Origin: Rhodocyclaceae bacterium
Lineage (GTDB): Bacteria > Pseudomonadota > Gammaproteobacteria > Burkholderiales > Rhodocyclaceae
Reading direction: 5' to 3'
DNA length: 64,000 nt
NCBI GenBank assembly: GCA_020445945.1
Contig: JAGRFQ010000001.1
Span: 30,571 to 94,570 of the forward strand
The stretch's first letter is position 1. Each line of letters opens with the position of its first letter. The position numbers and the translations under genes were made by a program. The notes beneath the pieces are model-generated. The model did no database searches. It was not told the origin of the DNA and saw nothing but the letters and a program-made list of their open reading frames with translations. Of the stretch, positions 18,198-18,971 are shown piece by piece.

Positions 18198-18866
18198 ATG
18201 TCCCTTTTTCGTCACGCTGCATTTGAAATTTCCATTGCTGAGCCCAAAGGTTTGCCGGCGCCCAATGGCCCGGAGATCGCGTTTGCCGGTCGCTCGAACG
18301 CAGGTAAATCAAGTGCAATCAATACCTTGGCGGGGCACACGCGGCTGGCCTTTGTGTCCAAGACGCCGGGGCGTACGCAGCTGATCAATTTTTTCCGCCT
18401 GCGCGGTGGTGCGGTGATGGTCGATTTGCCGGGCTACGGTTATGCCGAGGTGCCGGATCGCATCCGCCGCCAGTGGCAGGGCTTGCTGGAAAACTACCTG
18501 CGCGAGCGCGCCAGTCTGATCGGTTTGGTGCTGATCATGGATTCGCGCCGCCCGCTGACCGCGCTCGATCAGCAGATGCTCGACTGGTACGCGCCCAGCG
18601 GCCGCCCGGTGCACGTCCTGCTTACCAAGAGCGACAAGCTCTCGCGCAATGAGGCCGCCAAAGCGCTGGCCAGTACGCGCAAGGCGTTGGCAGCGTGGGG
18701 CGATGCGGTCACGGTGCAGCTTTTCTCCAGCCTCAAAAAAACCGGTGTCGAGGGCGTCGAGGCGGCGGTTGGCGGGTGGCTGGCAGGGTGCAACATGGCG
18801 GCCCCGGAAGGTGCGGCCGAGACAAAAGAAAACCCCCGGCCAAAGGGGAAGAAAGCCGGGGGTTGA
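18198..18866 (+). CDS. engB: Ribosome-biogenesis GTPase EngB (YihA/YsxC)
   Basis: This 222-residue small GTPase is needed for 50S subunit maturation. G1 is GRSNAGKSS (31-39). G2/G3 are in [12 protein letters not shown] and [11 protein letters not shown], and G4 is TKSDKLSR. The C-terminal tail is Lys/Gly-rich ([12 protein letters not shown]). The codons of that tail also form the terminator arm of the predicted minus-strand small RNA (18824-18936). Divergent from the cytochrome c4 gene; hemB follows after 145 bases. Confidence 0.96.
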
Positions 18867-18936
18867 AGTCCTACTTGAGGGGTAGGACGCCCGCTCAGGG
18901 AGGTGAAAGCGGGAGATGGCGCTCGCCATCTGTTTT
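18824..18936 (-). ncRNA. Predicted small regulatory RNA with C/U-rich hairpin loops
   Basis: Read on the minus strand, a promoter is followed by four hairpins. (1) 18931-18914, 8-bp perfect stem. (2) 18913-18890, 6-bp stem with 12-base loop TTCACCTCCCTG. (3) 18888-18868, 7-bp perfect stem with loop CCCTCAA. (4) 18864-18831, 10-bp perfect stem with 14-base loop TTTCTTCCCCTTTG, followed by TTTTCTTTT, a good intrinsic terminator. The T-run exists only in this orientation. Loops 2-4 are complementary to purine-rich Shine-Dalgarno sequences, as in known C/U-loop riboregulators. The 3' part is antisense to the end of engB. I do not recognise a named family. Confidence 0.65.
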
Positions 18937-18942
18937 CCTAGA

Positions 18943-18971
18943 TCAATACAATGGGCGAAAGTTCCCGGCAA
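18943..18971 (-). promoter_or_regulatory. Predicted sigma-70 promoter of the small RNA
   Basis: On the minus strand, TTGCCG (18971-18966, 4/6 to TTGACA) and TATTGA (18948-18943, 4/6 to TATAAT) are separated by exactly 17 bases. The expected start (~18936, A) is five bases before the first hairpin. On the other strand the region is the hemB leader. Confidence 0.5.

Follow-up and report, generated by a model that had tools for sequence, protein, structure and literature searches.

An anti-hemB (RF02837) small RNA with a conserved sigma-E-type promoter between engB and hemB in a Rhodocyclaceae bacterium

The minus-strand hairpin array at 18824-18971 of the window, a stretch of 64,000 nucleotides of Rhodocyclaceae DNA, is a genuine small RNA gene. 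Its product is a member of the known family RF02837 (anti-hemB, 'Burkholderia RNA 7') and not of a new family. The Rfam match at 18825-18916 on the minus strand scored 58.6 bits, above the cut-off of 49.5, with E 4.1e-11, and covered model positions 1-81 of 81, and the core features of anti-hemB, namely three hairpins, a C/U loop and a terminator, were found in the window. The first-pass annotation had recognised no named family for this RNA; the score above the cut-off corrects that claim and rules out a novel small RNA family. The transcript, of about 107-108 nt at 18825..18932 on the minus strand with its 5' end deduced from the promoter, lies between two plus-strand genes, engB/yihA for the ribosome biogenesis GTPase (18198..18866; TIGR03598, 230.2 bits) and hemB for porphobilinogen synthase (19012..20019; NF006762, 501.3 bits). 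The family, strand, structure, position and conserved promoter of the RNA and the presence of rpoE and hfq were established by sequence comparison. With moderate confidence, the RNA of the window is read as a sigma-E-switched, Hfq-type small RNA with an RBS-blocking CCUCCCUGAG loop.

The distribution of the family was analysed in related genomes. Of 150 genomes of the order, 104 contained an RF02837 match over the cut-off, and 120 contained one when E values up to 0.001 were admitted. The corresponding counts among 121 genomes of the family were 94 and 110. None of 14 control genomes gave a match over the cut-off, and three of them gave matches below it. The 80 homologous loci used for comparison form a non-random sample: L001-L030 and L031-L060 had the highest scores in the order and family searches, and L061-L080 were picked by hand, mostly from the low-scoring end of the matches. 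Exact-pattern scans of named genomes gave no match in the first scan and, in the second, five metagenome-assembled records labelled Burkholderiales, Betaproteobacteria or Proteobacteria.

The family has also been reported as a transcript. In Burkholderia cenocepacia J2315 the RNA ncS04, with the alternative name anti-hemB, is described as 105 nt long, with a 3' end confirmed by RACE and a band on Northern blots (PMC5688073). Its gene is located between BCAL0264 and BCAL0265, on the strand opposite to theirs, and the RNA appears in a list of those co-purified with Hfq (PMC4603805). Anti-hemB is likewise listed for B. pseudomallei (PMC3521395), and a review describes Bc7 as homologous to RybB and as predicted to target hemB (PMC6321483). 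Bc7 is probably the anti-hemB RNA. The term 'anti-HemB' in one paper denotes an antibody and not the RNA, and no paper was found under the accession 'RF02837' in the open-access literature. The RNA of the window resembles ncS04, whose locus is known from publications, in the full-model match, place, orientation, length and C/U loop, whereas the H3 loop and the stem sequences differ.

The structure comprises four hairpins on the minus strand. Hairpin H1 (18914..18931; AGATGGC/GCCATCT, 18931-18925 with 18920-18914) belongs to the anti-hemB RNA though it is located, like the promoter, outside the Rfam model. Hairpin H2 (18890..18913; CCCGCT/AGCGGG) carries the near-invariant C/U loop TCACCTCCCT, the presumed seed. 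It is followed by H3 (18868..18888; GTCCTAC/GTAGGAC), whose loop is not conserved, and by H4 (18824..18864; AACCCCCGGC/GCCGGGGGTT), which together with its U-tail makes up an intrinsic terminator overlapping the last engB codons. The hairpins and T-rich tail described earlier for the minus strand are all in the sequence, and the terminator proposed after the last stem was borne out by the T-run of H4. The H1 stem had been given as eight base pairs; the stem is present, but an eighth pair would leave a loop of two nucleotides, so seven pairs were retained.

The fold energy of the minus strand at 18824-18971 was -58.5 kcal/mol (z -4.06), which none of 200 shuffles equalled; the fold of the plus strand was weaker (z -2.28) and was equalled by 5 of 200. 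Covariation was examined in an alignment of 80 distinct rows, which comprised the window along with 79 homologues and was built without regard to structure. The 26 consensus pairs had standard pairs in 95% of cells, and 17 of them showed the changes on both sides that had been suggested as a check of the stems. Pairing dropped to 32-53% when the partner was slid by 1-3 columns in the same alignment. The covarying stems are H1 (81-94% of cells paired at each pair), H3 and H4, and the H2 stem is almost unchanged. The consensus pairs held 141 G-U cells against 23 A-C cells, a ratio that would be reversed for a plus-strand RNA. The covariation and this asymmetry support an RNA on the minus strand.

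The same hairpins exist on the plus strand, where they could serve as a structured 3'UTR or processing element of an engB-hemB mRNA. On that strand H1 is followed by GTTTTCC (18914-18931), which is terminator-like and might also end engB transcripts. This explanation is considered highly improbable, as the G-U excess, the T-run of H4 and the conserved promoter all favour the minus strand, and ncS04, the homologue, is described as transcribed against the direction of both flanking genes (PMC4603805).

The upstream region of the RNA revealed a sigma-E-type promoter. Its -35 element GGAACTT (18959..18965, minus strand) stands 16 nt from the -10 element TCTAG (18938..18942, minus strand). Promoter patterns were counted over 81 loci, the 80 homologous loci and the window. 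The motif GAAC[TC] was present between positions -66 and -42 relative to the Rfam match in 79 of the 81 loci, whereas 200 rounds of shuffled flanks averaged 4.0 loci and never exceeded 11. The loose form xGAAC[TC]x-N15-18-TC[TA]NN occurred in 75 loci, compared to an average of 0.8 and at most 5 in shuffles; its spacer was 16 in 38 cases, 17 in 29 and 18 in 8. The six loci without it were L002, L026, L042, L060, L068 and L076. When the last place was required to be A (the strict form), 67 loci fitted (shuffles: mean 0.245, maximum 2), distributed as 27 of 30 in L001-L030, 27 of 30 in L031-L060 and 13 of 20 in L061-L080. Positions left free by the pattern agreed too: among the 75 loci, the GAAC motif was preceded by G in 66 and followed by T in 54, and the -10 element ended in A in 60. 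In the first conservation profile, which was anchored on GAAC[TC], those columns are invariant by construction; the pattern counts are unanchored. The window fits the loose form only. Its TCTAG is a weaker -10 element than TCTNA, the version found in most relatives; it was seen in the window and in two congeners, and distinguishes the genus from other anti-hemB loci. The strict pattern GGAACTTN{15,17}TCTNA was not enriched in the own genome, with two matches against one for the reversed control.

The upstream motif has the form of the RpoE (ECF02) consensus, GGAACTT-N16-TCTNA. GGAAC-type -35 elements are also read by other ECF sigma factors, which weakens the assignment to RpoE. SigE of the betaproteobacterium Bordetella was shown to transcribe from RpoE-type promoters (PMC3490749), and the promoter sequences of B. 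cenocepacia are stated to be largely uncharacterised (PMC5688073). No description of an anti-hemB promoter was found in the open-access papers and listings consulted, and the sigma-E-type promoter is new relative to these. With the start placed 7 nt downstream of the -10 element, the predicted length of the RNA had a median of 104 nt over 75 loci (107 nt for the window). This value agrees with the 105 nt of ncS04 and was counted in favour of the sigma-E-type promoter. A transcript start at about 18931-18933 would fit the conserved promoter better than the start near 18936 given in the first-pass annotation. The sigma-70 promoter TTGCCG-17-TATTGA, also proposed there, is literally present and not conserved, TTGCCG being found upstream in two of the 81 loci.

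This sigma-70 promoter was rejected for want of conservation. A loose sigma-70 pattern was present in 5 of 81 loci compared to 5.7 in shuffles. The same count bears on the explanation that anti-hemB is made constitutively, either by sigma-70 as the housekeeping factor or by some ECF sigma factor other than RpoE, which is regarded as rather unlikely: the sigma-70 pattern is at shuffle level but the sigma-E form is found in 75 loci. The co-occurrence of the RNA with RpoE also argues against it. RpoE was above its cut-off in 130 of the 150 genomes, and anti-hemB was over its cut-off in 101 of these 130 compared to 3 of the other 20 (Fisher p 9e-8, a value that ignores kinship). The three exceptions, G033, G122 and G126, are drafts whose congeners or confamilials have RpoE, and all seven genomes without any RpoE-like match were also without an anti-hemB match. 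The own genome gave matches to both RpoE (338.5 bits) and Hfq (95.6 bits). Upstream of rpoE itself, a TGAACT-led motif and a TC element with similar spacing were seen in 21 of 29 scored loci; this motif reached a level of at most 1 in 50 shuffles in only 15 of the 29, and a stretch of the same length inside the gene scored higher in 12 of them.

The expression of ncS04 favours the constitutive explanation, since no significant change was recorded in the seven conditions tabulated in the source, where short exposure to SDS is also said to give little sRNA induction (PMC5688073). The steady level of ncS04 may reflect basal sigma-E activity, or the assignment to sigma-E may be wrong. Certain copies of the RNA point in the same direction. 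Some genomes have further copies, and of the 12 sites read in 10 stretches, five had the promoter pattern and a sixth, the second copy of G057, a variant recognised by eye. The L206 paralogue has TTGACA-N17-TATTCT in place of the GAAC-containing sigma-E form, and the hemB-linked copies of G033 and G078 (L212 and L211) are without the GAAC motif, while their copies elsewhere (L024/L213 of G033 and L027 of G078) have the sigma-E form; a promoter swap between anti-hemB paralogues is possible in this genus. The presence of the sigma-E-type promoter in nearly all of the relatives compared hints at when anti-hemB is made.

Two further loci with additional copies were observed. L210 (G057) holds two tandem anti-hemB copies between engB and hemB, and in the second, which scored 38.4 bits, the loop is altered to CTATCCCTATG and the promoter is a variant of the GAAC type. 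L214 (G161) holds a second HemB-like gene with 68.6% identity to that of the window, adjoined by its own anti-hemB copy (57.8 bits) with no visible GAAC promoter.

The genomic position of the RNA was compared over the 80 loci. In all 68 loci where both genes were recognised, the RNA was antisense to and between engB and hemB (tolerance 45 bases); the remaining 12 had engB alone (7), hemB alone (3) or neither (2), some of them being cut by contig ends. This conserved position would be expected of a cis-antisense RNA controlling engB or hemB through overlap or promoter interference. A sigma-70-like site directed towards hemB (18923-18952, plus strand), matching 9 of 12 positions, also overlaps the promoter of the small RNA, and because of this overlap the two may interfere with each other. 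Such a cis-antisense function is nevertheless judged quite improbable. The engB gene overlaps the Rfam match in just 44 of the 68 loci and does not overlap it in 24 (a single value in the overlap list, -1099, looks like a frame artefact), and the cis role on engB suggested earlier is thus not backed by conservation. The copies at L024 and L027, distant from both genes, retain the promoter and the loop, and the loop is conserved beyond what the position demands. The hemB frame of the window also has an in-frame upstream ATG at 18916 (18916-19012, plus strand), behind GGGAGGTGAAAGCGGGAG; this extension is probably due to chance, because the furthest upstream in-frame hemB start was located within the Rfam match in just 10 of the 68 loci of the relatives.

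The conservation of the individual loops was compared with the claim of three C/U-rich, anti-Shine-Dalgarno-like loops. This claim held for two of them and failed for the third: the H2 loop CTCCCTGAG was present in 78 of 81 loci (CCTCCCTGAGCGG in 76) and the H4 loop motif CCCCTT in 66, while the H3 loop CCCTCAA was found in two only, the window and one congener. The H2 loop is similar to the anti-Shine-Dalgarno tail of 16S rRNA.

Candidate targets of the H2 loop were then considered. A LutB-type gene of the own genome (L115 1485-1515) starts behind CAGGGAGGTG, which is complementary to the loop; as a conserved target LutB was rejected, with GGGAGG in only two of 30 loci including the own one. 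Porins were scored in 22 of the 30 fetched loci, the others having a flank interrupted by the end of the contig or lacking a recognised start. The mean pairing energy of the H2 loop with the RBS was -8.2 kcal/mol for porins, -9.6 for lutB, -5.4 for hemB and -4.5 for engB. The difference between porins and the pooled others (p 8e-5) is confounded, as Shine-Dalgarno strengths differ in the same direction. Neither GGGAGG nor AGGGAG was found in any of the 22 scored porin loci, and with this result, the confounded p value and an average pairing weaker than that of lutB, the analysis gave no support for porins as preferred targets. In the own genome GGGAGGT before ATG gave 25 matches compared to 6 for the reversed pattern, among mixed genes. 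At least one CAGGGAGGT before ATG was found in 51 of 61 genomes, and 12 of 30 examined loci of this kind lead into frames of fewer than 60 codons. No target mRNA was established among the candidates tried, LutB and porins.

The RNA was compared with other small RNAs having C/U-rich loops or sigma-E-type promoters. A C/U loop directed against the Shine-Dalgarno sequence is the general idea also of RepG, CcsR and the alphaproteobacterial CCUCC-loop RNAs. The RNAs 6C, sX13 and mmgR (suhB) resemble anti-hemB in having hairpins with C-rich loops and a terminator, but their models scored 24.9, 18.5 and 22.1 bits on the RNA of the window against cut-offs of 47, 50 and 41, which makes the likeness one of analogy only. 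The suhB/mmgR family is, as we assume, the sole alphaproteobacterial one among the Rfam matches with E up to 1, far below its cut-off. RybB and MicA of enterobacteria are sigma-E-dependent small RNAs. Anti-hemB is like these two and ErsA of Pseudomonas in its sigma-E-type promoter, its own terminator and the presumed RBS blocking with Hfq, and unlike them in that no porin preference was found. The ErsA/Pseudomon-1 model (RF01719) gave 18.2 bits on the RNA of the window against a cut-off of 50, so that no kinship in sequence was shown. For ErsA, a sigma-E-type promoter, an own terminator and RBS blocking with Hfq are described (PMC6321483). The 'toxic' double-hairpin RNAs of Bordetella, RF02278 (bdhR1) and S17, also belong to Betaproteobacteria and share C/U-rich unpaired stretches complementary to the RBS, whereas their promoter and structure differ from those of anti-hemB; the RF02278 model gave no match to the RNA of the window at E up to 1. 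Such betaproteobacterial C/U-loop RNAs are the source of the RBS-blocking analogy (PMC11722255).

The proposed working of the RNA begins with the envelope-stress sigma factor RpoE (sigma-E), which on being freed from its anti-sigma factor would transcribe the RNA of about 105 nt from the GGAACTT-N16-TCTNA-type promoter. The RNA would end at its own terminator, with Hfq holding the U-tail. The open H2 loop CCUCCCUGAG, perhaps helped by the H4 loop CCCCUU, would pair in trans with purine-rich ribosome-binding sites, and pairing with several mRNAs would lower their translation. That the RNA depends on sigma-E in vivo, that this bacterium employs Hfq for it, and that it pairs with such targets are conclusions we infer from the comparisons above. 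As general mechanism we suggest that the H2 loop, together with Hfq, blocks ribosome-binding sites, because the loop is conserved, binding of ncS04 to Hfq has been reported, and ErsA and the betaproteobacterial C/U-loop RNAs offer an analogy.

The RNA family is known and its sighting in the window is new; it would be wrong to present the candidate as the first of a new family. With matches in 104 of the 150 genomes searched, anti-hemB is common across Burkholderiales, but the literature found holds no demonstrated function or regulator for it. The conserved promoter leads to a hypothesis that can be tested, namely that the RNA has a part in the response to envelope stress. A broader proposal, on which our confidence is evenly balanced, is that the sigma-E response to envelope stress in Burkholderiales (in the GTDB sense, which includes the family of the window) would have anti-hemB as its ancestral small RNA arm, damping mRNAs with purine-rich RBSs via the anti-Shine-Dalgarno-like loop. 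If this is true, anti-hemB would have in Burkholderiales the role that the unrelated RybB and MicA have in enterobacteria and ErsA has in Pseudomonas, and sigma-E-driven small RNAs would have arisen from unrelated RNAs in different proteobacterial groups.
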